Positions 201-64,000 of a stretch of 64,000 nucleotides of DNA are shown here, piece after piece. The notes beneath the pieces were generated by a model. It was given only the letters and a program-made list of their open reading frames with translations, did no database searches and was not told where the DNA came from. Position 1 is the first letter of the stretch. The number at the start of each line of letters is the position of its first letter. The stretch spans positions 51,836,916-51,900,915 of the forward strand of contig NC_079219.1 in the NCBI RefSeq assembly GCF_029633865.1, in the 5' to 3' direction. Origin of the DNA: Lampris incognitus (taxonomy: Eukaryota > Chordata > Actinopteri > Lampriformes > Lampridae). The translations under genes and the position numbers were made by a program.

Positions 201-7968
<7,768 letters not shown>

Positions 7969-9140: not shown

Positions 9141-9237
9141 ATGAAGGTGCAGTGCCAGCAGGAGGCGATGATTGACTCAATGCCAGCAACTCCCCACGGA
9201 GGAAAAGAAGCATACAGCATTTTCCAAAATCCCTCCC

Positions 9238-9292
9238 CTAACCCAACCCTAACCCTAACCCAACCCTAACCCTAACCATAACCCTAACTGTT
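9238..9292. repeat. Telomere-like CCCTAA repeat, left of Gypsy
   Basis: Degenerate CCCTAAC/CCAACCCTAA units ending CCCTAACTGTTA, directly abutting the left LTR of the Gypsy element. A matching tract abuts the right LTR at 13324-13357. Confidence 0.85.
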
Positions 9293-9293
9293 A

Positions 9294-9449
9294 TGTTGAA
9301 ATAACAGACAAAACTGGAGCTGTCTTTGGAGTTGAACCTGTTCCATAATCAACATACCGACCTGACCATCAAGCAAACAGGCGACGTAAACACAACACCC
9401 TGAAATTAACATAAAGCAATGCACTGTCGTATCGGCGCCAAATGTAACA
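9294..9449 (-). repeat. Gypsy 3' LTR
   Basis: Shares the order TGTTGAAATAACAG, GGAGCTGTCTTTGGAG and CCATCAAGCAAACAGG with 13172-13326. It is bounded by a polypurine tract at 9450-9460 (minus orientation). Confidence 0.85.
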
Positions 9450-9629
9450 TCCCTCCCCCCATAACCTAGGAGTGGTACTCAGTCTCAAAGTCACGCAGGT
9501 GCCCGGGCCTGCTGCGTGCCGTGACCGGGCGGGGCTCAGGTGCAGCCACTACAGGCGGTGGCCCCACTGCTTCAGGCTGGGCTGGAGAGGCTGGTGTTGC
9601 TGCAGCATCGAACCGTGCAGCCGGCACAC

Positions 9630-11833
9630 TCAGTCCCGGCCCAGGGGGGGGGCCCGCACCTTATGCGGGCAGCTAGCATGCCAGCGAGTGCCATCGGCAA
9701 GCCTGAATGAAGCTGGACCAGGCTGTTGACTGACCTGAACAGGGTTCAACCAGAACAACTGGAGCTTGTTGTCACGGTGGGGTCGCTGGATCCTGACCCA
9801 GTCCGAGATGGCGATGGCAGATGATCTGGCATGTCGGGTCCTGTCGAAGTGATTCTTCATAAGGCATTGGTATGTGGCAACTGTGTCTTGAACTGGGTGG
9901 ACTGGGGCCTGAGCCGGTGTAGGGTGGAGCCTCTCCAGAGGTAGTTGGAGCTCCCGCCCCAGCATGGGGGAAGCTGAGGAGACCCCTGTGGTGGCATGTC
10001 GGGTGGCCTGGTAATGCAGCAGCATCTGGAGGAGGCTGGTGGTGAGCGTGCACCCTTGTGCCAGGTGGGCCCTTATATTCCAGTTTTCAGTGATTGATTC
10101 AGCCATTCCACCCCCTGTTCATGGCAGGGTTGTAAAAGGTTGTGCGGATGTGGTGGATCCCCTTCCCCACCAGATAGGAGGACAGCTCATGGGAGACCAT
10201 TTGGGGGCCGTTGTCGGTCGTGATCCTCTTGGGCAGGCCCCAACGTGCGAACAGGGCGTCGAGGACGTCGATTAACGCCTTGGCTGTGACTGAGCCCACA
10301 GGTGTCACCTTGGGCCACTTAGAGTGGAGGTCGTAAATGGACAGCCAGTCCAACGGCTACGTGGGTGGGGGTGGGGCTGGGGCCCTGGTCTTACCACTGA
10401 GGAGACAGGCAGTGCAGTCCTTGACCAGGGTCTCGATTTCCCTGTCAATGCCTGGCCACCACACGATATCGCGACACCGCTGTTTGAGCCTGACTATGCC
10501 CAAGTGGCCCTCATGCACCATAGGAAGGATACATGCCCGAAGGGCACCTGGGGCCACAGTGCAGAGCCCATGAGCAATGCAGGTGTCATTCCAACACGAC
10601 AACTCGTCCTTGACCCTGAAGTAGGGGAGCAGCTCATCTGGTACCCTGGGGTGGGGCCGTCAGCTGAGGCATCCTGGAGCTCCTGCAGGGACACCATGTC
10701 TTGAAGGGGTGTGGGGAGGAGTTGGACGAGGTCATGGGGCCCCACTTCTGGGCCCCGAGATACATGTGCCAGCACTCACATGCCCAGAGGCACGCTAAAG
10801 CCTCCCGCTCCCCCACTACGTACCTCTGCTCTGTGGGGCTGAGAGCTCGTGAGGCGAAGGTGATCGGCCTCTCGATCCCATCTTGCAACTGGGACATCAC
10901 AGCACGAATGGCTGTGGCAGAGGCATTGCATGTGACAAGGGTTGGGCTAGCCAGGTCGAAGTATGCCAGAACTGGTGATGAGGTGAGCTGGGACTTCAGG
11001 ATGTACACGGCATCTGAGTAGGCAGGTGTCCAGAGCCAGGGCTCGCCATGTTTCAGTAGCTGTCACAGTGGCGCAGTTGTGGCCGAGTACTGTGGCAGAA
11101 AGCAGAGGTAGAACGCTGTCATGCCCAGGAAGGAGGCCAACTGGGCGGTTGAGGTGGGCTCCGGGATCCGGTGGATGGCCTCTGTGTTCGAGTGGAGTGG
11201 GTACATGCCGTCAGCCGAGAGGCAAAACCCCACAAACTCGATGGCTTGGGCAGCAAAGACACACTTCTCGCCACTGAGTGTGAGGTGGTGTTTGGCAATC
11301 ACACTGAACACGCTGTGGAGGCGCTCGTCGTGGCTCTCAATGGTGGCCCCGTGCATCACGATGTCATCAAGATAGATGGCCACACCTGGGATTTCAGCGA
11401 AGATGGAGGCCATGATCTTTTGGAAGCAGCTGAGGGCAGAGCTTAGGCCAAAAGCCACTGGCAGCAGCTCTACAACTAGCGGTTCAGGTCGAATCGGCTT
11501 TGGAATGCGCTGCTAGTTTGTCTGCCTCTTCCGCTTGTAGCGGAAGACCCCTTTGTGGGTGATAAATGCAGTGAGGTTGCGGCTCTCAGGGTGTAGTGGC
11601 ACCTGGAGGTAGCCCTGGCAGAGGTCCAGTTTAGAGAAGACTGTGGACCCATGGAACTGGGCGATGAGCTCCTCTGTCGTTGGCAGGGGGTACTTGTCAG
11701 GGATAATGGCCTTGTTGACCGCTCTCAAGAAAACACAGAGTCGCAGCCCCCCAGACTTCTTCTTTGCCACCACCAGGTTGAAGATCCAGGGTGATGCATT
11801 CACCTGCTCGATGATGTCGCCGTCGAGTGTGCT
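9630..11833 (-). pseudogene. Gypsy pol (RT, RNase H, integrase), broken
   Basis: Reverse transcriptase: FSKLDLCQGYLQVPLHP (11803-11533) and AFGLSSALSCFQK with the YLDD catalytic box (11453-11063). RNase H: LVTCNASATAI and SRALSPTEQRYVVGEREALA (11008-10780). Integrase: zinc-finger-type VKDCTACLLSGK (near 10400), core WLSIYDLHSKWPKV and TTDNGPQMVSHE (10353-10150), and a C-terminal strand SDWVRIQRPH (near 9800). The RT is interrupted by an inverted 79-bp gag copy (11454-11532), the RNase H C-terminus is frame-shifted, and a TAG lies at the IN core entry near 10354. Confidence 0.85.
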
Positions 11834-13120
11834 CTATAGCTCAGCAGAGATGTTGTCACGGAGAGCCAGGGGACAGCGGCGGAGAGGCTGGATGACAGGT
11901 GTCACTTTCGGGTCTATCAGGGGCTGGTGAGTGAAGCGCTCAAGGCAGCCCACACTACTTAACAGCACGGGCCACTGTTGCTGCCATGGGATGGCCACGG
12001 TGTGAATCTCTGAGCCAGTGGTGTCTAACAGGGTGAAACTGAGGCCGTTGAATAGGTCGAGGCCTAGGAGGTTGGTCCCACGGTGTGCAATATTGAACCT
12101 GATGACTGGCAGTGTCTTCTCTCCATATCTCACTGGAAGCTGGAGGGAGCCCACGATGTCAATCTCAGAGTTGGCATAACCACGCAGGGTGGTGGTGGGT
12201 GGCCCCAGTGGCCCGTGGGAGGAGAACTGTGAGTAAGTTGCCAGGTTCAGAAGGGACACTGTGGCTCCAGTGTCCAGGAGGAGGGGCAGGGTGACATCAC
12301 CAACCATCAATGAGCATGTTTTAAATGGCACTCGTCCTGAGCTGACATTGTGGATGATTGTGGTAGGTGGCTGGGAGGCTCTAGCCGGGGCAGATCTACA
12401 GACTTTGTGGAAGTGATTCCTCTTTCCATAGTTGGAGCATGTTTTACCACAGGCAGGGCAGATCTGAGCTCTGGAGTTGTGTGTAGAAGAGTCACAATTC
12501 CCACACGTCTGGTGCTGGCAGTCACGTGACTGAGAGGCTAGTAGTACGCTTTCCCCGCGGCTGTCTGCAGACTCTGCACTCGCGCCGAGGGGGTGCGTCT
12601 GTGAACTGAGCGCGCCCGTTTCCTGTGCTGGCGAGTTGGAAGAGGCAGACAAACTAGCAGCGCATTCCAAAGCCGATTCGACCTGAACCGCTAGTTGTAG
12701 AGCTGCTGCCAGTGGCAGGTCATCGTTTTCTACCGACAGTCTTTCTCTAATCTTGACACAGTTCGTGTGCAATATGAGGTGGTCTCGGATCATTTCGTCT
12801 TGTAACGCCCCAAATTTGCACGAGCTAGCTAAACCTCTTAGATCAGCCACGTACTGTGTCACTGAGTCACCCGACCGTTGGTGTCTCCGTCCGAATATGA
12901 CTCGGCGGAGAAGAGCACTTTGTGGAGCGGCAAAATGATTTTTCAGTAACTCCTCAGCCTGTTCGTAAGTATTTGCGGTGCCGAGAGTCCCAAACACGCG
13001 TTGCCCCTCTGTTCCTAGACAGTGCAGCAGCAGTGCACGTTTCCTCTCGACCGATACTTCGTCCAAGCCGGCAGCTAGGATATAAGTTTCAAACGAGGAC
13101 ATCCAGCAGGGCCACGCCAT
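11834..13120 (-). pseudogene. Gypsy gag-protease ORF (428 codons open)
   Basis: The longest open frame in the window, from an ATG at 13120. The N-terminal half is capsid-like (retrotransposon gag, with YEQAEELLKNHF and DSVTQYVADLRGLA). A Cys/His cluster, CPACGKTC...KVCR, near residues 215-240 resembles a zinc knuckle. The aspartic protease follows, with LLLDTGATVSLLNL as its active-site DTG. The frame stops at AEL just before the reverse transcriptase, and the in-frame continuation past the stop is clearly pol (STLDGDIIEQ), so this stop is a lesion or a recoding site. Confidence 0.88.
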
Positions 13121-13171
13121 CGGTGGCTAGCCCGGCAGAGAAAAATCAGTCCTCTCTCGTCGCCAATGTCA

Positions 13172-13326
13172 TGTTGAAATAACAGGCAAAACCGGAGCTG
13201 TCTTTGGAGCTGAACCTACTCCATTTAATCAACATACCGAACTGACCATCAAGCAAACAGGTGACGTAAACGCAACACTGAAATTAACGTAAAGCAATGC
13301 ACTGTCGTAACAGTGCCAAGTGTAAC
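13172..13326 (-). repeat. Gypsy 5' LTR
   Basis: Partner of the 9294-9449 repeat. Its outer edge runs directly into CCCTAACCCTAACCC. Its inner edge meets the leader TTGGCGACGAGAG. Confidence 0.85.
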
Positions 13327-13467
13327 CCTAACCCTAACCCAACCCTAACCCTAACCTGCCTGAAAAGTTAGTTAGTTAAAGTTTTGTACACGGAAAAGAG
13401 AGCCAAGGTGGATATTTAGTAAAGCACAGTGGGATCACTTCGAGTATTTATGTGAGAGGGAATGTAT

Positions 13468-13682
13468 TGTAACGTGCATGGATAAGTAGTCACGCTGGCC
13501 GCTGGCTGGCAGGTCTGACCCTATAGTCGAGCGGTTAGCGATGTCTCCTGCGGTGCGGGCGATGCGGGTTCGCTTCCCGGCCGCGGCAGTTCCTGTGGTT
13601 GTGTTGTCCCCCGAATTCACTACATTGGTGTCAGAAGTGGGATGGGGCGACCGTAAGGCCCTCGGAAGCGTATGTGCCCTGA
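13468..13682 (+). mobile_element. tRNA-bearing miniature LTR element, copy A (5' part)
   Basis: LTR 13468-13624 (157 bp) runs TGTAACGTGCATGG to GAATTCACTACA and holds TAGTCGAGCGGTTAGCG (A-box-like) and GGTTCGCTTCCC (B-box-like). The primer-binding site TGGTGTCAGAAGTGGGA starts at 13626 and matches the complement of a tRNA-Leu 3' end. About 55 bp of internal sequence follows, shared with copy C. It then ends at the junction with the I-type LINE near 13682; no right-hand LTR is found downstream. Confidence 0.75.
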
Positions 13683-16600
13683 GGCGTGAAGGAACTGATA
13701 TGCTTAAATCAAGGAACAGAGCGTTTAAAGTGTTAAAAAGAACCCATAATTTCCAAAAACCAATTGAATATAAAAGGGCACAGGCGCAAGCAGGGAAAAC
13801 TGTGAAGGAAGCAATGAAACGACGTTGGAGGGATTTCTGTAAAAACATAGGCAGATCAACACCTATAGGTGATGTATGGGGAATGATAAGAAAGATGAGG
13901 GGAATCAGAAGAGTGGCAGTACCCAGTACTAATAGAAGGAGATGAAACAGCTGTGTCAAATGAAGATAAAGCAGAAATATTAGCTAAGACATTCACCAAC
14001 ATCCACAGTTCTAACAATCTAACAGAGGAGGGGAAATGAGGGAGGGATGCAAATAGAGAAGCATACTCAAGATGTTTTGCAAGATCGGGAGAGCAAAACT
14101 TGTGCATTGGATGCACCTTTTGCTATAGAGTAAATGAGAGCTATAGCAAAAACTGGCCTGACATCCCCAGGGAAAGACCATTTCTGTTATATAATGTTGA
14201 AATATTTAGGAACTCAGACAGAAATGAAGCTTCTAGTGTAACGGGGGCAGTCCTATGGTGTTCTATGCTGGTCAGCCTGCTGCACGCCCGTCACTCTCAT
14301 CATTAGCTCTGCGTTGTGTTCTATTTTCGGTGGGGCCCCAGGTGTTGTGGGGGGCCCTCAGTCTCTCATCATCATCATCATCATCATGATCAAGGAAGGA
14401 GGGGGGACACACAGGACTCTATTTGGCCCACCTTGCCATTTATTTTGGTTTCAAACCCTTCGACAAACGTCCAGTCCTCCAGCGGGAGCGGTGTTTCTTA
14501 CGGACGTGGGGGTCGAAGTTCAACCACTGCCCGGACTTCACTCGTGTGCGTTAGAAGGAGAAACCGTCCACGGGACTCCGATGTAAGAAAGGATAAACAA
14601 GTATTTTATCCCACAGCTTGCAGTATCTTCTTACAGGGATACTCAAGGTTACGTTCTCCTCAACCAGCAAAACTGTCCTACGGTAAGAAACACGCGTGGC
14701 TCGGCTCGATCGCTGCTTGAGACTCCTCCCACAAAACAAAAAATGGCCTCTCCCGCGTTCCCTCTTCCGTGTACCCACAAGACCTCTCTCTTAAAGCGAC
14801 AGTACATGTATATGACGGTCGTTATAAAACATACATAAAAGTAAATAATGACATAAAATAAAATGTAGTAAACACAAATAACAGCACACAGACAGGATTT
14901 GGTGATATTTCATACTCAAACAAAATAAAATAAAAACATTAATTTCAACCTGGTTACACTAGCAATACATAATAAAGTTTGGGAAGAAGGAAGGTTACCT
15001 ACCAGTTGGAAAGAGGCTGTCATTATGCCCATAATAAAACCAGGAAAGGACCCAACAAGTCCAACAAGCTACAGATCAATTGCACTCACTTTCACATGTA
15101 GGGAGGATAATGGAAAAGATGATTATAGAAAGAATGACATTCTATATAGAAACTAGAGGGTTATTATCCTCTTACCAGAGTGGATTTAGGAAAGGCTGAG
15201 GAACAATGGATCCAGTAGTTTGTCTGGAAAGTGAAATTAGAAAAGCCCAAGCTAATAATGAATCAGGGATGGCAGTGTTCTTTGATATAGATAAAGCTTA
15301 CGATATGGTATGGAAAGAGGGATTGTTGATCAAATTAGGAAAAATTAGAATAACTGGAAGAACTTTTAATTGGATCAAACATTTTTTATTTGATAGAGTT
15401 ATTCAAGTTAAAATTGGGACAGCGTTATCTAATAAATACAGGGTAGATAACGGAACATATCAGGGCATTGCTATCAGCCCAATCCTTTTTTCTATTATGA
15501 TTAATGATGTATTCGCTGACACAAATTACGACATTGGGAAGTCACTATTTGCTGATGATGGGGGTTTATGAAAGAGGGGGAAGAATTTAGTACTACTTAG
15601 AAGGAAGATTCTGGAAGTGATTTATGTGGTAGAGAAATGGTCACACTCATGGGGATTTAAGTTTTCTGTAGAAAAGACAAAGGTTGCGGTGTTTAGTAGG
15701 AAGGAAATAAGGGAAGAATGTGTAATGATGTATGGGGAACACTTAGAGCAAGTAAAGACTTTTCGATTTCTGGGGGTTTTATTTGACACAAAGCTGACCT
15801 GGAGGGATCATATTAATGATATACATAAAAATGCAAGAGGGTTCCTAATGTCATGAGATGTTTGACAGGGTCAGAATGGGGAGCAAATAGGAGCACTTTG
15901 ATGACTATTTATGTTGCGTTAATAAGATCAGCGTTTGATTATGGAAGTGTAGTGTACAGGTCAGCAGTAAAATCACAGTTAAAAAAGCTCGAAGTGATAC
16001 AAACTCAAATATAAGCATATCATGGTGAACTACTAGGCAAATCTACAAGGGCATAGGGAAGACCATCCTGCTGTGAAGGCCCTCAAACCATGTTGGGAAA
16101 GTAGGAAAGTAAAGGGAGAATGTTTTGCTTGGGCAGCAAATAAAATGGTTGAAGAAATGGGATTACATGGGAGAAGTTATTGTTCCACAGTGCCATACCC
16201 GGTGACTCCGCCACGGTTATTTCCCCCTGTGATATTAGATTGCTATACTCAAGAAGAAATGAAGAGAGTGAAAGGAAGAGGTAATTGGGCAGAGATAGTG
16301 GACAGCAGATTAAACACAATACATCAGTCATTCACTCCACTATATTCAGATGGATCAAAGGAACCAAAAAAATTAAACACAGGACTTGCTTATGTTATCC
16401 CAGAGTTAGATATACTACATATCAAGGAAAGAACACTGAACAGTATATACAACTGAGATATTGGCTATTGCATTGGCATTAGAGTGGGTAGAGCAAAACA
16501 AGCTTAAAAAAGGTCATAGTGTGTTCAGATTAATTGTCAGCTCTGGTATCATTACAGTCCATGTCATCTCAATGCAGACCAGATATCATCTACGAGACAT

Positions 16601-17800: not shown

Positions 17801-18047
17801 TGTTTCGGTGTTTGTTTATTCATTTATTTATTTATTGCAGTTCACGTTTTATAGGCCTTGTTACGTTTGGTAGATTGGCAATATGCGTTTTCCGTTTTGT
17901 TTTTCAGGTAATATTTTCACTTTTTCAATTTTGCTATTCAAGTTCGGCCATGTCTCTCGGAAGTTTAAATTGTTTAAAAATAGTATTATGGTTCTTAAAA
18001 TGTGAATTTTGGTGTCAGTTAGTTTCATAACAGACATACTAACATAT

Positions 18048-18543
18048 TGTAACGATCACGGATGAATAGGCTCGGTAGCCCTTGCCGAACGGGTCGGACC
18101 CTTTAGTCGAGCAGTTAGCGCTATCGCCCGCGGTGTGGGAGATACGGGTTCGCGTCCCGGCCATGGCGGTTCCTGCGGTTGCCCCCCCCGAATTCACTAC
18201 TTTGGTGTCAGAAGTCGGATGCGCGCGGACGCGCTTCCCGAAGGAGGGGGGTAGGGTAACGTGCACGGATAAGTTCACACGCTTGGCTAACGGGTTGGAT
18301 CCTTCAGTCGACTGGTTAACGTAGTCGCCCGCAGTAGGAAATACACGAGTTCGCGCCCCGGCTGTGCCGGTCCGGCCGGGGACGCCCTTCCCGAAGGAAG
18401 GGGACAAAGTAACGATTACGGATGAGTAGGCTCGGTAGCCCTTGGCTAACGGGTCAGACCCTTTAGTCGACTGGTTAACGTAGTCGCTTGCGGCGTGGGA
18501 GCCACGGGTTCGCGTCCCGAACTGCCCCCCTGAATTCACTACA
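18048..18543 (+). mobile_element. tRNA-bearing miniature LTR element, copy B (three LTRs)
   Basis: Three LTR units (18048-18200, ~18256-18378 damaged, ~18409-18543) alternate with two very short internal parts (18201-18255 and ~18379-18408). The first internal part has TGGTGTCAGAAGTCGGA as primer-binding site and CCCGAAGGAGGGGGG as polypurine tract. Each LTR carries TTAGTCGA(C/G)(T/C)(G/A)GTTA and GGTTCGCGTCCC-type boxes. ATAT flanks both ends (18044-18047 and 18544-18547). There is no coding capacity. Confidence 0.82.
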
Positions 18544-19028
18544 ATATGTGCTGCATTAATACCTCAGTTGGGTATTTATCTTGACAGAATATAGAGTTTA
18601 AAAACCGGCCGTCATTTTGACCGCCCATGGTCGTTTTAGGTAGTTGTGAAATCCCGTTCGTTATAGTGTTAAAAAAATCGTGTCTATGTACCCTATGGAC
18701 AGCTGTGTCCTATCGGACTTTAAACTAATTTTTGGACACTTCCTGGAGTTGTTGTCCCCTGACTAGATCCTAGCTTGTGTTGTATTAACTCTCAGATGCA
18801 CGTCGCCTGGACAAAAGCGTCTGCTAAATGAAACTGTAACATCGCTTGTTTCCTTGGCCTGTATGTTTGAACTCCTTTGGTTCTGCTTGCCCACCATGTC
18901 CTGTTGTCCATTCCGCCTTGGTGTTTGTATGTTTTGTGTGTGTGTGTGAGAGAGAGTTTTATTATACTGGCTGCAAACCAATTTCCCTGTAAGGGACAAT
19001 AAATACTTTGACTTGGATTGTTGTAACA

Positions 19029-21994: not shown

Positions 21995-22452
21995 GTAGCG
22001 AATTCGGAGGGCAGTCTGGGAGACCGTCGCCGCAGCCGGGACGCGAACCCGTGTCTCACACTCCGCAAGCGACAACGTTAACCAGTCGAGCGGTCGGCGA
22101 TGTCGCCCGCGGTGTGGGCGATACGGGTTCGCGTCCCGGCTGCGGCAGTCCCTGTGGTTGCTCTCCCCCGAATTGGCTACATTGGTGTCAGATGTGGGAT
22201 GGTGAGACCGTAAGGCCATCGGAAGCGTATGCGCCCAGAAGCGTGAAAGAGCTGATATGCTGAAGCGCGGGGACGCACTTCCCGAAGGAGGGGGTAGTGT
22301 AACATGCATGGATAAGTACACACGTTGGTCCTTGACTAACGGGTCGGACCCTTTAGTCGACTGGTTAACGTTGTCGCTTGCGGAGTGGGAGATATGGGTT
22401 CGTGTCCCGGCTGTGGCGATAGTCTCCCAGACTGCCCCCCGAATTCGCTACA
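21995..22452 (+). mobile_element. tRNA-bearing miniature LTR element, copy C (palindromic 5' LTR)
   Basis: The right LTR 22298-22452 (155 bp, TGTAACATGCATGG to GAATTCGCTACA) is complete. The internal part 22182-22297 (116 bp) has TGGTGTCAGATGTGGGA and a CCCGAAGGAGGGGG polypurine tract. The left LTR is abnormal: 21995-22090 is the inverted 3' half of an LTR, joined at the A-box to the direct 3' half (22085-22181). Confidence 0.78.
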
Positions 22453-23810: not shown

Positions 23811-45079
<21,269 letters not shown>

Positions 45080-50111: not shown

Positions 50112-50225
50112 AATGTAACCGGTTATTTTCTTGCCCGGTGCGGGATTCGATACGGGGTGTACTGCACCACAAGGCGACATCACTAACCGCTCGGCTAAAG
50201 GGTCAGACCCGTTAGTTAGGGACTA
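50112..50225 (-). mobile_element. tRNA-bearing LTR, divergent relative (copy D)
   Basis: On the minus strand: CCCTAACTAACGGGTCTGAC, CCTTTAGCCGAGCGGTTAG (A-box-like), CGAATCCCGCACCGG (B-box-like), ending AACCGGTTACA. The first half matches the LTR family at 18048; the 3' end differs. Confidence 0.55.
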
Positions 50226-50669
50226 ATGTGTCTTATTAGTAGTTTACAGTAAGTTATGCGTTTCTTTTATTCAACCAACACTCGAACGAAAGCTTGTCGC
50301 TAGCTGCTGCTAGTGGTATGGTGATAGTAAAACTGTAAACTGTGTATTTAGCTAACGTTTCGAAGTTCAGCCATATGAAACGACGACGATGGCCCGAGGT
50401 GCGTCGTTTTTCACCCGAAAAACGGTGCGGGGGTGCAATGTAAACCTTTATTTCTAGTCTGGATCCGGGCTCGTGCAGGTCCCCCTCCCGCGCGCCACTA
50501 AAGGCGTCCGTCGCTGTACGCTCCGACGGCTGACGGAGCAGCGGTACAAGGTTCCTCAAGTGCGGCGTGGGTCGCCTCGCCCGGACGTCCCGGCGGTTTT
50601 GAATTTTAGACTGCTGCCAGTGAGCCACTTCCCAGGGAAATGTTGTTGGCTATATGAAGATAAACAAGT

Positions 50670-51532
50670 CTACTACTACTTTCGGCTGCTCCCGTTAGGG
50701 GTCGCCACAGCGGATCATCCGTTTCCATTTCTTCCTGTCTTCTGCGTCTTCCTCTGTCACACCAGCCACCTGCATGTCTTCCCTCACCACATCCATAAAC
50801 CTCCTCTTTGGCCTTCCTCTTCTCCTCTTCCCTGGCAGCTCCATATTCAGCATCCTTCTCCCAGTATACCCAGCATCTCTCCTCCACACATGTCCAAGCC
50901 ATCTCAATCTTGCCTCTCTTGCTTTGTCTCCAAACTGTCCAACCTGAGCGGTCCCTCTAATATAATCGTCCCTAATCCTGTCCTTCTTCGTTACTCCCAG
51001 TGAAAATCTTAGCATCTTCAACTCTGCCACCTCCAGCTCCGCCTCCTGTTTTTCGTCAGTGCCACTGTCTCCAAACCATATAACATAGCTGGTCTCACAA
51101 CCCTCTTGTAAACTTTCCCTTTAACTCTTGCTGGTACCCTTCTGTCGCAAATCACTCCTGACACACTTCTCCACCCACTCCAACCTGCCTGCACTCTCTT
51201 TTTCACCTCTCTACTGCACTCCCCGTTACTTTGGACAGTTGACCCCAAGTATTTAAACTCAAATGCCTTTGTCACCTCCACTCCTTGCATCCTGACCATT
51301 CCACTGTCCTCTCTCTCATTCACGCATAGGTATTCCGTCTTGCTCCTACTGACTTTCATTCCTCTTCTCTCCAGTGCATACCTCCACCTCTCCAGGCTCT
51401 CCTCAACCTGCACCCTACTCTCACTACAGATCACAATGTCATCCGCGAACATCATCGTCCATGGAGACTCCTGTCTGATCTTGTCCGTCAACCTGTCCAT
51501 CACCATTGCAAACAAGAAAGGGCTCAGAGCCG
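50670..51532 (-). mobile_element. RTE-type LINE, copy 3, with 16-bp target duplication
   Basis: 863-bp 5'-truncated RTE copy on the minus strand: RT FADDIVICSESRVQVEESLE, then FKYLGSTVQSNGEC, GWSGWRSVSGVIC, AELKMLRFSLGVTKKDRIR, LPGKRRRGRPKRRFMDVV, and an AGTAGTAG tail at the left end. ATGAAGATAAACAAGT flanks both sides (50654-50669 and 51533-51548), fixing the boundaries. Few lesions, so a fairly recent insertion. Confidence 0.92.
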
Positions 51533-51598
51533 ATGAAGATAAACAAGTATTACACGTAAATAAAAATCTCAGCCAGACGGAATAATATTGTAACGTGC

Positions 51599-51912
51599 CT
51601 TGGCTAGCGGGTCGAACCCTTTGGTCGACTGTGGTGCGTGATTTTTTTTCGCACCCGTTTTCGAGAGCGTTATTATTTTTCCCATCTCGATTCCGGGAAG
51701 ACCCGCCCCTAACCCCACCCGAACCCTATCCCTAACCCCACCCTAACCCTAACCTTAACCAACCTAACCAACGGAGGCAACGAGTACTAGCCAATCAGAG
51801 GCAGAGTTCCCGGAAAACGGGTACGAAAAAAAATCACGCGCCCGTGGTGCGGGAGACCCGGGTTCGCGTCCCGGCTGTGGCGGTTTCCGGGCTGCCCCTC
51901 GAATTCGCTATA
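51599..51912 (+). mobile_element. tRNA-bearing solo LTR, copy E, hit by a MITE
   Basis: Starts TGTAACGTGCCTTGG, ends GAATTCGCTATA, and is flanked by ATAT on both sides (51595-51598 and 51913-51916). Inside, at ~51646-51839, lies a small element with inverted ends (GCGTGATTTTTTTTCG, one mismatch over ~27 bp) and telomere-like CCCTAACC units in its middle. The 8-mer GTGGTGCG is repeated at 51641-51648 and 51844-51851. The LTR tRNA-like region continues after it (GGGAGACCCGGGTTCGCGTC). Confidence 0.8.
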
Positions 51913-52079
51913 ATATCCTCCTGCAAACTTTGGTATATAATGACGTAATGACAACGTGACAGTGTGAACACGTTAACATCGTCGCAGATAATTGTGTATG
52001 TTTCACAACCACTGCTGCGTCAGCCACAAGCTAACAAACAACATAAACAAATAAAGGCTGCGTACACTTACCATTCCGA

Positions 52080-56106: not shown

Positions 56107-56253
56107 TGTAGTGAATTCGGGGGGCAACCGGGAACCGCCGCAGCCGGGACGCCACCCCGGGTCTCCCGCACCACGGGCGGCTACGTTAACCAGTCGAGTA
56201 AAGGGCCCGACCCGTTAGCCACGGGCTAGCGAGTCTACCCATCCGTGGTTACA
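56107..56253 (-). mobile_element. tRNA-bearing solo LTR, copy F
   Basis: 147 bp. On the minus strand it runs TGTAACCACGGATGGG to GAATTCACTACA, flanked by GATC on both sides (56103-56106 and 56254-56257). The internal A-box-like TTTACTCGACTGGTTAACG is intact. The B-box region is altered (GGGGTGGCGTCCC). The best-bounded single LTR of the family. Confidence 0.85.
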
Positions 56254-56700
56254 GATCTTTACCAGTCGATAACTACAACGCCGATCTGCAACCCGGGGAA
56301 ACGCATGTTTCGCTTTGTTGGTGGAGGGGGGGGGTGCTGGGGGTGCTAATGCAGTGTACGCATTGGCAGTTCCTTTGTTTCAAACGGATTTCTGGGACGC
56401 ACCATTGCTCAAACACTGATGCAATTACTACATATCCCAGTAGGTGTCAGTATATTTGTGGTGAGAAGTGGCTTTGACGTGACGTCATCAGTGTTGTCAA
56501 GAAGCGAGGTTAAACCCACGAGCGGGCTGACGAGTCACTTATTTTTAAATTGTCCCGTACGCGAGCTGGTGTCAGAAGTGGCCGATTGGACACCGTCAGA
56601 GTAAGAAATGGCCGTTTGGACCGCCAGAACCATTTGGCTTCTCCCGTCCGGCTGAATGGCCAGTGCGGCGCCGTCGTTTCGATCGCTCTCGAGTGGCGTC

Positions 56701-57830: not shown

Positions 57831-59288
57831 GACATGGTGAGTCACGCTATAATAGACAGCATGGGAAAACACATCCCTGCCCAGCCAGGAACAAGAGGTG
57901 CAGAAAGTGCAATAAGATGGGACATTTTGAGGCAGAATGTCAAACAAAAATGATCAAAGAAGTGGCTCCGGTGTCCAGTAGTACAACAGACAGAAAGGGT
58001 ATGTTTTTCTTTGGAGCAGTAACTGAAGCTGTGTCAGCCATAACCAAGCAGCCATATTAAGAAAGTGACTCGTGGTGTTACCTGTAAATGGCAGCACTGT
58101 AGACTGTAAGAAAGACACAGGGGCAGACATCACTGTACTGTCACAGACTGCATTTAATAGACTGCCACAGCACCCACGATTGGTTACAACAGGGCCAAAA
58201 CCACCCGTCACCAGTCCCTGTGGTGAAGTGCAGTGTAAAGGCAAATTCCTGGCCACAAGTCACTGCAAAGGACAGAAATACCAATACTGGGTAACCGTCA
58301 TAAGGGGACCATACTCTCACAAGCAGCTGGGACACTGTTGCCAAGAGGATGGGTCTACTCATGAGAGTCGATTACATTGACACAGACATAATTGTTATGT
58401 TTGGGGATATAGGTCTGCTCAATTGTGACCCCCATCAAAATTGAACTGAAGGCTGATGGTGAGCCCTACACTCTGACGCTACACCATGTCCCGTTTCCCC
58501 TCCCGTCAAAAGTTTAGACAGAACTGAAGCATATGCTGGTCCTGGGCAAAATAGAGGAGGTCACTGAACTCACTGATTGGTGTGCCTCGATAGTTCCTGT
58601 GGAAAACAGATACCTAGATCAAGTGTGGGTGTGTGTAGCTCTAAAATGTTTGAACATGGCAGTTAAGTGAGAGAGGTACATCCTGCCAACTTTGGAGGAC
58701 ATTGCTCCAAAACTGGCTGGAATAAAGGTGTTCTCGACTCTTAATGCTTCATGTGGATTCTGGCAGATCCCCATGGATGCAAGCAGCCAAAAGCTGATGA
58801 CGTTCATAACCCCTATCGGTAGATTCTGCTTCCGTGGCTGCCATTTGGAACCACTACAGCTCCAGAAATCTTCCAAAGACAGATGTCAGTGCTGTTAAAG
58901 GGCCACGAGAGAGTTTTCGTCATGATGGACGACTTACTTATCTTTGGAGCAACTACGAAAGAGCCATCTAGCAACCAGCCATCTAGCCATCTAGCCAAGT
59001 GCATCCAATCACTGGCCTGCTCAAGAGAGAGTGAGTGGATATAGAGTGATGGGCGTTCAGCATGACAGGCATTCAACAAGGTTAAAGCCATGCTCGCCTC
59101 AACTCCAGCACTTGCATATTACAATCCCATTTGGAAAACTATTATCCTTAGCACGGATGCAAGCAGCTACAGCTTAGGGTGGTGTTATTACAGGAACATG
59201 ATGACGAGTTGCTAAAGATGAAGAGATACTCCCAAATAGAAAAAGATTGCTTGGCAGTTGTGTGGGCATATGAACATTTTGCACGCTA

Positions 59289-60728
<1,440 letters not shown>

Positions 60729-62437: not shown

Positions 62438-64000
62438 ATACCCTGTTGTACTGTGTCTATCACTCAGATCTGCTGCCCAATCAGCATCACTATGTGCCCC
62501 TAGTTTGAGTGTTTCTTTGCTTTTCTTGTATAACTCCTTGTTGATCGTGCCTTTTAAATCCCTCATCACATGTTTGGCTGCTATCATGTATTGCTGTTTT
62601 GGCTGTGATAAAGGTTGTGATTGCTTGCTGACTATCCAGCGTAGATCTGGCCTTGTAGATTTCATTATACATAAATCAAGCTGCCTATCACCTCCCGATA
62701 TCTCCTAGGATCAGTAAGTTCACCATCTAAGTTTAGTTTCTGTTCACATTGAGTTGACCTTGACTTACAATCAGACATACCAAACGTCTCCAGTATTTCT
62801 GATATGTACCTCTTTTGGTTCATCCTTACTTCTCCCTCCCTCTGATTGAAATCGGTGCCTAGAAAGTGCTTAAGCTTCCCGAGATGTTTCATTTTGAACT
62901 TTGCTGCCAACAGTTTCTTCACATCATTGAGAGAATCATTGTCCCTGGCTGCAATGAGTAGATCATCAACCCAAATGATAAGTATGATCCTATCACCCCC
63001 TGTTCCTTTGGTGTATACACAGTGGTCTGCTGGATTCTGTGTAAATCCATTTTCACTGAGGTGATCATGTAACACTCTGTTCCAATCTCATCCTGACTGT
63101 TTCAGGCCACAAAGTGACTTGTTCAGTTTACCGACTAGTTTTTCACCTGTCTCTGATTTGACTTCAAATCCTTCTGGTTGCTGTATGTACACCTCACATC
63201 AACAGGAGCATTTAGATAAGCTGTCTTCATATCCATTTGATGGAGTTCAAGGTCACATTGAACTGCCATTTGCACCAGGGTACGTGCTGATGTCATATTC
63301 GCAGTTGGAGAGAAAGAAATTAACCTGCTCCCCACTGCATTTTGACCCTCTGGCAGTGTGGTCAATGTGTATGTGTCATTTTCTCTGAGAGAATTCATCT
63401 CCTCTTTCATAGCACTATAGCAATTCTGTGAATTTGATGAGCCCATGGCTTCATCAGAAGTTTGTGGTACACTACTACACACCATCCTGTAGCAAAAATC
63501 AACATTGGCTAATATTTGGTCATCGTTGTCAACATCAGATACATAGTCGTTCAAGTATTTAGGAGCGTTCCTATCCCCTCTGGGGTAGTGTGTACTATGA
63601 CTATCTCCTGTCCTCCCTTGTACGGCATCTCTTTTGTCGGTTTCTAGTTTGAGAGTCATTTCTGGATTTGCCATGTTAGACTCTCAGCTCCCTTTTTATG
63701 TCTGCTCAGCTATCCGAGGCTTTGGCATGGGGGATGCCCGTCTCTTCCAATGAACATCATCTGTCATCATCAGGTCAGTCTGAGTTTCATGTTCAAGTGC
63801 TTCCTTCGTAATGAACTTCACAAGCCTGTGCTTGAGTACTTTCCCTGTGTGTGGGTAGTAGACTAGGTGCGCTGGGCCTTTCTTGTCAACTCCTACAAAC
63901 AATCTCTTCTCGAAACCGGAGTCTAGCTTTTTCTTGTTTTGTTTGTATGCATAGCACACCGTTCCGAACACTCTCATTTTGGAGAGGTCCGGCCTCTTCC

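Follow-up and report, generated by a model that had tools for sequence, protein, structure and literature searches.

A Helenus-type miniature LTR element whose LTR carries a two-box, tRNA-like segment and whose three-repeat and head-to-head inverted forms appear to be inserted whole

The window of this study, a stretch of DNA of 64 kb, carries a miniature LTR element of 496 bp at 18048-18543, the middle LTR being counted in (Table 1). The element noted in the sequence-only reading of the same stretch stands, with the correction that it contains three LTRs (154, ~118 and 136 bp), of which the middle one is cut. A BLAST search inside the window placed copies also at 13468-13624, 21995-22452, 51589-51912 and 56107-56253 (minus), in agreement with the earlier count of at least five places, with the refinement that 56107-56253 is a solo LTR and 51589-51912 is an LTR interrupted by another insertion. 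The internal regions in the window are 54 and 116 bp long and end in a polypurine tract, as had been claimed. A profile of 152 positions was built from five LTRs of the window and used to place the LTRs in the window and in the genome loci. The description as a miniature LTR element is thus confirmed by window copies with an LTR of 152 positions, a tRNA-Leu-type primer site, a polypurine tract and 4-bp target duplications. The primer site is of the tRNA-Leu(CAA) type.

Table 1. Positions of the three-LTR element, of the other copies of its family and of a second-family LTR in the window
Feature	Position	Strand
Target duplication ATAT, left	18044-18047	none
LTR 1, complete (profile positions 1-152)	18048-18201	+
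A box of LTR 1, TAGTCGAGCAG, LTR position 57	18104-18114	+
B box of LTR 1, GGTTCGCGTCC, with C in place of the A58 of tRNAs	18147-18157	+
Primer-binding site TGGTGTCAGAAGTCGGA	18203-18219	+
Polypurine tract GAAGGAGGGGGGTAG	18240-18254	+
Middle LTR, lacking U5 and primer site; cut end at about LTR position 124	18255-18372	+
Second polypurine tract GAAGGAAGGGGACAA, resembling the first	18393-18407	+
LTR 3, end CTACA	18408-18543	+
Target duplication ATAT, right	18544-18547	none
LTR copy A	13468-13624	+
Copy A: primer site; the 5' part of the internal region comes next	13626-13642	+
Copy C: left arm, in inverted orientation, of the head-to-head dimer (LTR positions 151-60, U5 outward)	21995-22089	-
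Copy C: right arm of the dimer, LTR positions 58-152	22084-22181	+
Copy C: long version of the internal region, with its primer site at 22183 and a terminal polypurine tract	22182-22297	+
Copy C: 3' LTR, complete	22298-22452	+
LTR copy D, 5' part; ATAT to the left (51585-51588), another insertion next	51589-51631	+
LTR copy D, 3' part; followed by ATAT (51913-51916)	51839-51912	+
Copy E, a solo LTR flanked by GATC on both sides	56107-56253	-
Second-family solo LTR, TGTAAAC...GGTTACA, 135 bp; TTAC on both sides in minus-strand reading	50114-50248	-

The insertion which splits copy D (51632-51843) has inverted ends, TGATTTTTTTTCG and CGAAAAAAAATCA, together with CCCTAACCC repeats, and GTGGTGC is present at both of its edges. 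Elsewhere, the window contains minisatellites (26 bp x 36 copies at 41852-42789 and 31 bp x 20 copies at 4546-5165), parts of two genes, a papain-type cathepsin and a WDR5-like one, at 28791-29165 and 59286-59810 (minus), and fragments of reverse transcriptases, both Copia-type (RVT_2) and RVT_1-type, at 62665-63087 (minus), 15200-15571 and 51018-51725 (minus). Taken together with the repeats, the gene pieces point to a bony fish. A scan for a viral-contig pattern gave 0 hits.

The window's own genome (1.48 Gb in 537 contigs) was searched with several queries and the best 40 candidates of each search were scored, out of 7,282 for the 496-bp element (38 loci used), 2,774 for the 117-bp internal region (20 loci used), 1,983 for the second-family solo LTR (20 loci used), 2,734 for the head-to-head part and 2,250 for a dimer of the second family. 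Since the loci were chosen by similarity as best-scoring sets, the counts given below are neither a census nor frequencies, and composites and dimers are over-represented in the best 40 of such longer candidate lists. The LTR-primer site-polypurine tract-LTR anatomy was found at dispersed loci of the genome. LTRs of the family of the window element (family 1) start with TGTAAC and end with CTACA, and the internal regions, mostly of 53-54 or 116-117 bp, end with GAAGGAGGGGGGTAG or a variant of it, after which the next TGTAAC begins. The family-1 LTR pairs have a median identity of 0.846 (0.775-0.973, 20 pairs). Exact 4-bp duplications were observed in 16 of the 39 family-1 chains with both ends complete, among which 6 left ends are by reading polypurine tracts and no true ends; re-pairing of the flanks gave a mean of 5.0 and none of the 5,000 trials reached 16. 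The duplicated tetramers are ATAT (6), ATAC (4), GTAT (3), CTAT (1), ATAA (1) and GATC (1). At two loci, L039 (500-1002 and 2034-2536) and L063 (972-1770), complete LTRs lie start to start at a distance of 4 bp, as if one element had been inserted beside the target duplication of another.

The solo LTR at 50114-50248 represents a second family (family 2), which has the box region and the stretch before it in common with family 1 and differs in the ends. In the genome, family-2 elements of ~135 + 102 + 135 bp were found with the primer site TGGTGGCAGCGGTGGGATCC, of the tRNA-Leu AAG/TAG type. Exact 4-bp duplications are present in 12 of 19 chains; a tandem of three LTRs at locus L075 has both of its primer sites and is flanked by CTAC on either side. 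The LTR pairs of family 2 are 0.90-0.97 identical (8 pairs) against the family-1 median of 0.846, which makes family 2 the younger one. The internal regions of L071 and L073-L076 hold AGTCTCTTCGGAGCGCGGG or a close variant, and this sequence resembles, in sense orientation, the variable arm of the would-be primer tRNA-Leu.

The proposed tRNA-like segment with about 44 nt between its A and B boxes was recovered in both families. The spacing is 43 nt in 71 of 78 family-1 LTRs and 44 nt in 31 of 31 family-2 LTRs; in 12 comparison tRNAs it is 42-44 in eight, 53-55 in three long-armed ones and 37 in one. Local alignment with 16 human tRNAs and 17 distinct host tRNAs gave a median best score of 17 for the 78 family-1 LTRs vs 11 for shuffles, 1 of 780 shuffles reaching 17, and of 18 for the 31 family-2 LTRs vs 10 for shuffles, with 0 of 775 reaching 18; as the LTR copies are related, these are two cases and not 109. 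Comparison with shuffled LTRs had been set beforehand as the point on which the tRNA likeness could fall, and the LTRs exceeded the shuffles both in pairwise alignment and in box spacing. The part of the earlier proposal that did not stand is tRNA-Asp as the source, which had no advantage over Gly or His in local alignment: the nearest tRNA was Gly in 58 and Asp in 6 of the 78 family-1 LTRs, and His in all 31 of family 2. Models of the whole tRNA did not recognize the segment. The covariance check with the Rfam tRNA model (E<=10) was negative for the window, for the element and for the LTRs at 16 loci; the same model did find a tRNA-like place in the flank of locus L013. ARAGORN reported 0 tRNAs in the window and 0 in 24 loci, and a profile of the 17 host tRNAs reached at most 3.0 bits on the 78 family-1 LTRs vs 8.6 on 780 shuffles and found nothing on the 31 family-2 LTRs. 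Proof of a tRNA origin by covariance model, ARAGORN or host-tRNA profile therefore had to be given up, the supportive results being those of the pairwise and box tests. The B boxes deviate from tRNA, with GGTTCGCGTCC in family 1 and GTATCGAATCC in family 2.

Comparison of 86 LTRs showed the B box and the last 20 bases as the best kept regions, at 0.926 and 0.924. The palindrome region stands at 0.893, the first 20 bases at 0.856, the spacer at 0.845 and the part after the B box at 0.803; the A box as a whole reaches 0.888, all its positions being at least 0.92 except two free ones at 0.54 and 0.56. The palindrome is a near-palindrome centred at LTR position 49; 8 or more of its 10 pairs are formed by 47 of 78 LTRs vs 1 of 78 after shuffling. 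A Pol III start is expected some 12-25 nt before an A box, and the palindrome, together with AGTCGACT in the A box, would lie close to such a start. TTTT occurs in 5 of 113 family-1 LTRs vs 31% after shuffling and in 0 of 31 family-2 LTRs vs 30%; this depletion lends weak support to Pol III because AAAA is equally rare in family 1 (3 of 113 LTRs; in whole elements TTTT 3 of 20 and AAAA 4 of 20), giving no strand specificity, and with related copies the cases amount to few independent ones. As far as the sequence features go, the LTR segment may be used by Pol III.

Elements of this kind have been published as Helenus, i.e. TRIMs with a tRNA-derived sequence in the LTR, from fungi, animals and one plant (Kojima 2024, PMC10886601; here and below with reference to those parts of the paper that were available). 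The idea of an animal counterpart of the plant element Cassandra therefore fits, but not as a new kind; for the kind, the prior description that had been named as a point of refutation exists. In that paper, Helenus elements are <1,000 bp in the screen and 311-1,263 bp in the results, the tRNA-derived sequence was identified with Censor and tRNAscan-SE, and the animal families make 4-bp duplications, with His, Leu or Lys primers in vertebrates; a Gypsy helper was inferred, and Pol III transcription was not validated there (PMC10886601). The window element is of TRIM size with LTRs and no coding region. Its LTR contains A and B boxes whose tRNA derivation is indicated by the boxes, their spacing and the alignment against shuffles, the tRNA models being negative; a primer site complementary to a tRNA-Leu 3' end and a polypurine tract are present, and 4-bp duplications occur in both families. 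The letters of the boxes agree in part only with those of most Helenus families, with GGTTC and TAGTC in family 1, and TAGCC but GTATC in family 2.

The Gypsy at 56566, suggested earlier as the helper, was not supported. It has 15 bases of the primer site, TGGTGTCAGAAGTGG, in common with the element, and these are preceded by GCGAGC in the Gypsy (~56566) and by TACA in the element. A genome search with it gave 13 matches from 12 candidates, as compared to the thousands of unscored candidates of the Helenus queries. With a different LTR end and few genome matches, it is not specifically supported in this role. The Gypsy at 9289-13326 (minus) was rejected on account of its different primer site, TGGCGACGAGAGAGGA. 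The LTRs of this Gypsy (9289-9448 and 13167-13326) are 89% identical, and it sits between CCCTAA telomere-like repeats (9236-13356). Among these two Gypsy candidates of the window, no helper with matching LTR ends was found.

The three-LTR structure of the window element recurs at other loci, where a complete LTR is followed by ~54 bp with the primer site, an LTR cut at about position 125, ~34 bp with a second polypurine tract and again a complete LTR; the share of such composites is inflated because the first query is itself a composite. Among 111 adjacent LTR pairs, 68 have a complete U5 and a primer site and 38 have a cut U5 and no primer site, with 4 and 1 mixed; the primer site is present in 68 of 72 U5-complete junctions and absent in 38 of 39 U5-cut ones. 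Exact duplications flank 6 of 10 three-LTR and 4 of 5 four-LTR chains. In 19 triplets, the middle LTRs are 0.172 apart across loci vs 0.216 and 0.223 from their own flanking LTRs, and a tree of 122 LTRs required 13 changes of the middle label vs a mean of 31.4 and a minimum of 26 in 200 shuffles. Fitting less well, LTR 1 and LTR 3 of one locus (0.165 apart) are hardly nearer to each other than LTR 3 copies between loci (0.171). From the other results we infer that a tandem dimer lost its second U5 and primer site and that the resulting three-LTR composite then spread as a unit, 18048-18543 being one example.

Copy C contains an inverted form, the head-to-head LTR dimer. Such pairs (14) are present in 13 of the 58 loci of the first two search sets. 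The window dimer as a query gave 40 loci, the window included, of which 37 are paired, with a length of 175-200 bp and with U5 outermost in both arms. The neighbours of these 40 were classified in two ways with the same outcome: 11 loci have host DNA on both sides, 19 have a primer site next to one arm and 7 next to each arm, and 3 are unpaired. Of the 11 dimers called stand-alone, 6 have exact 4-bp duplications, with 1.9 expected by re-pairing (p 0.001); 5 of 10 (p 0.012) have them after removal of L127, which lies in a TTA repeat, and 6 of 9 remain when L135 and L137, which by reading run into primer-site remnants, are set aside. A looser filter, with two other loci, gave 6 of 11 dimers with duplications (2.1 expected, p 0.0007), and the dimers of the first set gave 4 of 10 (1.7 expected, p 0.039). 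The host-side tetramers of the dimers have a central TA in 36 of 41 cases, as in ordinary insertions. The near-palindrome at LTR position 49 and AGTCGACT in the A box lie at those dimer junctions that were read. A literature search found no report of head-to-head or inverted LTRs with target duplications.

The two arms of a dimer come from different LTR subtypes in 35 of 40 loci by spacer comparison. They differ by 0.285 within a locus and by 0.286 between loci, left arms differing among themselves by 0.11 and right arms by 0.11, in a set of loci picked by likeness to one query, which lowers the arm distances and favours the arm pair of that query; for ordinary LTRs, the two subtypes have values of 0.177 and 0.149. 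No covariance of the arm distances was seen across loci (correlation -0.16, a value equalled or exceeded in 439 of 500 shuffles). Since the arms at one locus are as different as those of different loci, copying of one arm from the other, as in snap-back copying of one cDNA, is excluded for the family-1 dimer set, which agrees with the spread of one unit as well as with repeated joining. Family 2 has dimers with another junction, both arms being covered in 6 of the best 40 loci, the query included. Of the 5 loci fetched besides the query, 4 were measurable; 2 are without an adjoining primer site and 1 of these is flanked by ATAC on both sides. The flanks of the query locus (L085) are CTAA and TTAA. 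The presence of dimers in both families points to their repeated formation.

These results are very probably explained by a Helenus-type TRIM of ~360-500 bp, non-coding, with a tRNA-derived two-box Pol III promoter in its LTR and with the cycle, composites and dimers described here. This reading draws directly on the anatomy, the duplications, the likeness and conservation of the two boxes, the clustering of the middle LTRs and the dimers with duplications; anatomy, duplications and box conservation likewise uphold the earlier claim of a non-autonomous miniature LTR element with a tRNA-like LTR segment. In the cycle that we infer, Pol III would start within the 5' LTR, slightly upstream of its A box; the promoter would thereby lie inside R and be copied into each new LTR, and the transcript would run across the short internal region into the 3' LTR. 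Reverse transcription would be primed by tRNA-Leu at the primer site and the second strand by the polypurine tract, after which an integrase, probably of Gypsy type and supplied in trans, would insert the product with a 4-bp duplication, mostly at NTAN. A tandem dimer without its second U5 and primer site may then give rise to the three-LTR composite and its spread as a unit. The palindrome immediately preceding the A box, together with AGTCGACT, a palindromic part of this box, may favour head-to-head joining of first-strand (R-U5) products, and the joined duplexes, carrying U5 at both ends, may be accepted by the integrase as well. This second, inverted architecture, with R-U5 halves joined at start-site palindromes and inserted by integrase like an inverted-repeat transposon, separately in two families, is proposed tentatively and can be regarded as a real possibility.

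Other explanations were weighed against this reading. The element may be an ordinary deletion derivative of a coding Gypsy, transcribed by Pol II and resembling a tRNA by chance, as could be argued from the failure of the tRNA models on the LTR and from the presence of a Gypsy with a related primer site in the genome; however, two families with different LTR ends have retained the boxes at tRNA spacing and the boxes are among the best conserved parts of the LTR, and such an origin is considered highly improbable. It is also rather unlikely that the three-LTR composites are separate products of unequal recombination at each locus, with no spreading unit. Tandem arrays are on record, of ~three LTRs in Cassandra (PMC7215508, in the part available) and for zebrafish LTR-11_DR (PMC10886601), tandems with all primer sites exist here as well, and 5 of 19 triplets have LTR 1 and LTR 3 farther from each other than either is from the middle one. 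Against this stand the restriction of the cut ends to LTR positions 120-130 and 140-142, the ending CAA in 24 of 38 cut junctions vs TAG in 47 of 68 ordinary ones, and the grouping of middle LTRs across loci.

The dimers, in turn, may be non-autonomous DNA transposons, mobilized via their inverted ends, for example by a Ginger2-type transposase, and without reverse transcription. Their inverted ends of ~90 bp start with TGTAG and they have 4-bp duplications, and Ginger2 is described, in the available part of PMC2836005, with TIRs of 50-180 bp, TGTNR ends, 4-bp duplications and RTATAY targets; arms which are equally different within and between loci are also what a unit carried along would show. 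Against this, ordinary insertions use the same NTAN sites and U5 ends, the dimers run into a primer site in many of the 40 loci, those of family 2 have another junction, and the arm distances lack covariance between loci. A DNA transposon is accordingly considered unlikely, and the joining of reverse transcription products is the reading we prefer for the dimers.

With this study Helenus gains families, and a single genome is seen to contain two that differ in their Leu primer site. A Pol III start predicted to lie at a palindrome makes the proposal testable, and copies such as these may be mistaken for tRNA pseudogenes or MITEs. The composites suggest a route from a tandem to a stable unit by loss of the second primer site. 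If the proposal on the dimers is true, reverse transcription products would feed a TIR-type element, and U5-U5 dimers, if accepted by the integrase, would link LTR retrotransposons with inverted-repeat elements of the same ends and targets.

In comparison to known systems, Ginger codes for a transposase and is not known to have an LTR, primer site or polypurine tract. The likeness of Ginger2 concerns the dimers only and lies in the TGTNR ends, the long inverted repeats and the 4-bp duplications at AT-rich sites (PMC2836005). Cassandra is likewise a TRIM with a Pol III promoter in its LTR and has short tandem arrays (PMC7215508), whereas its promoter is 5S rRNA and its hosts are plants. The closest agreement is with Helenus, in the A and B boxes within the LTR, the Leu primer among those of vertebrates, the 4-bp duplications, the suggested Gypsy helper and the tandem arrays noted for LTR-11_DR; the cut-middle three-LTR composites and the U5-U5 dimers, which are not mentioned in the available parts of that paper (PMC10886601), set the present families apart.
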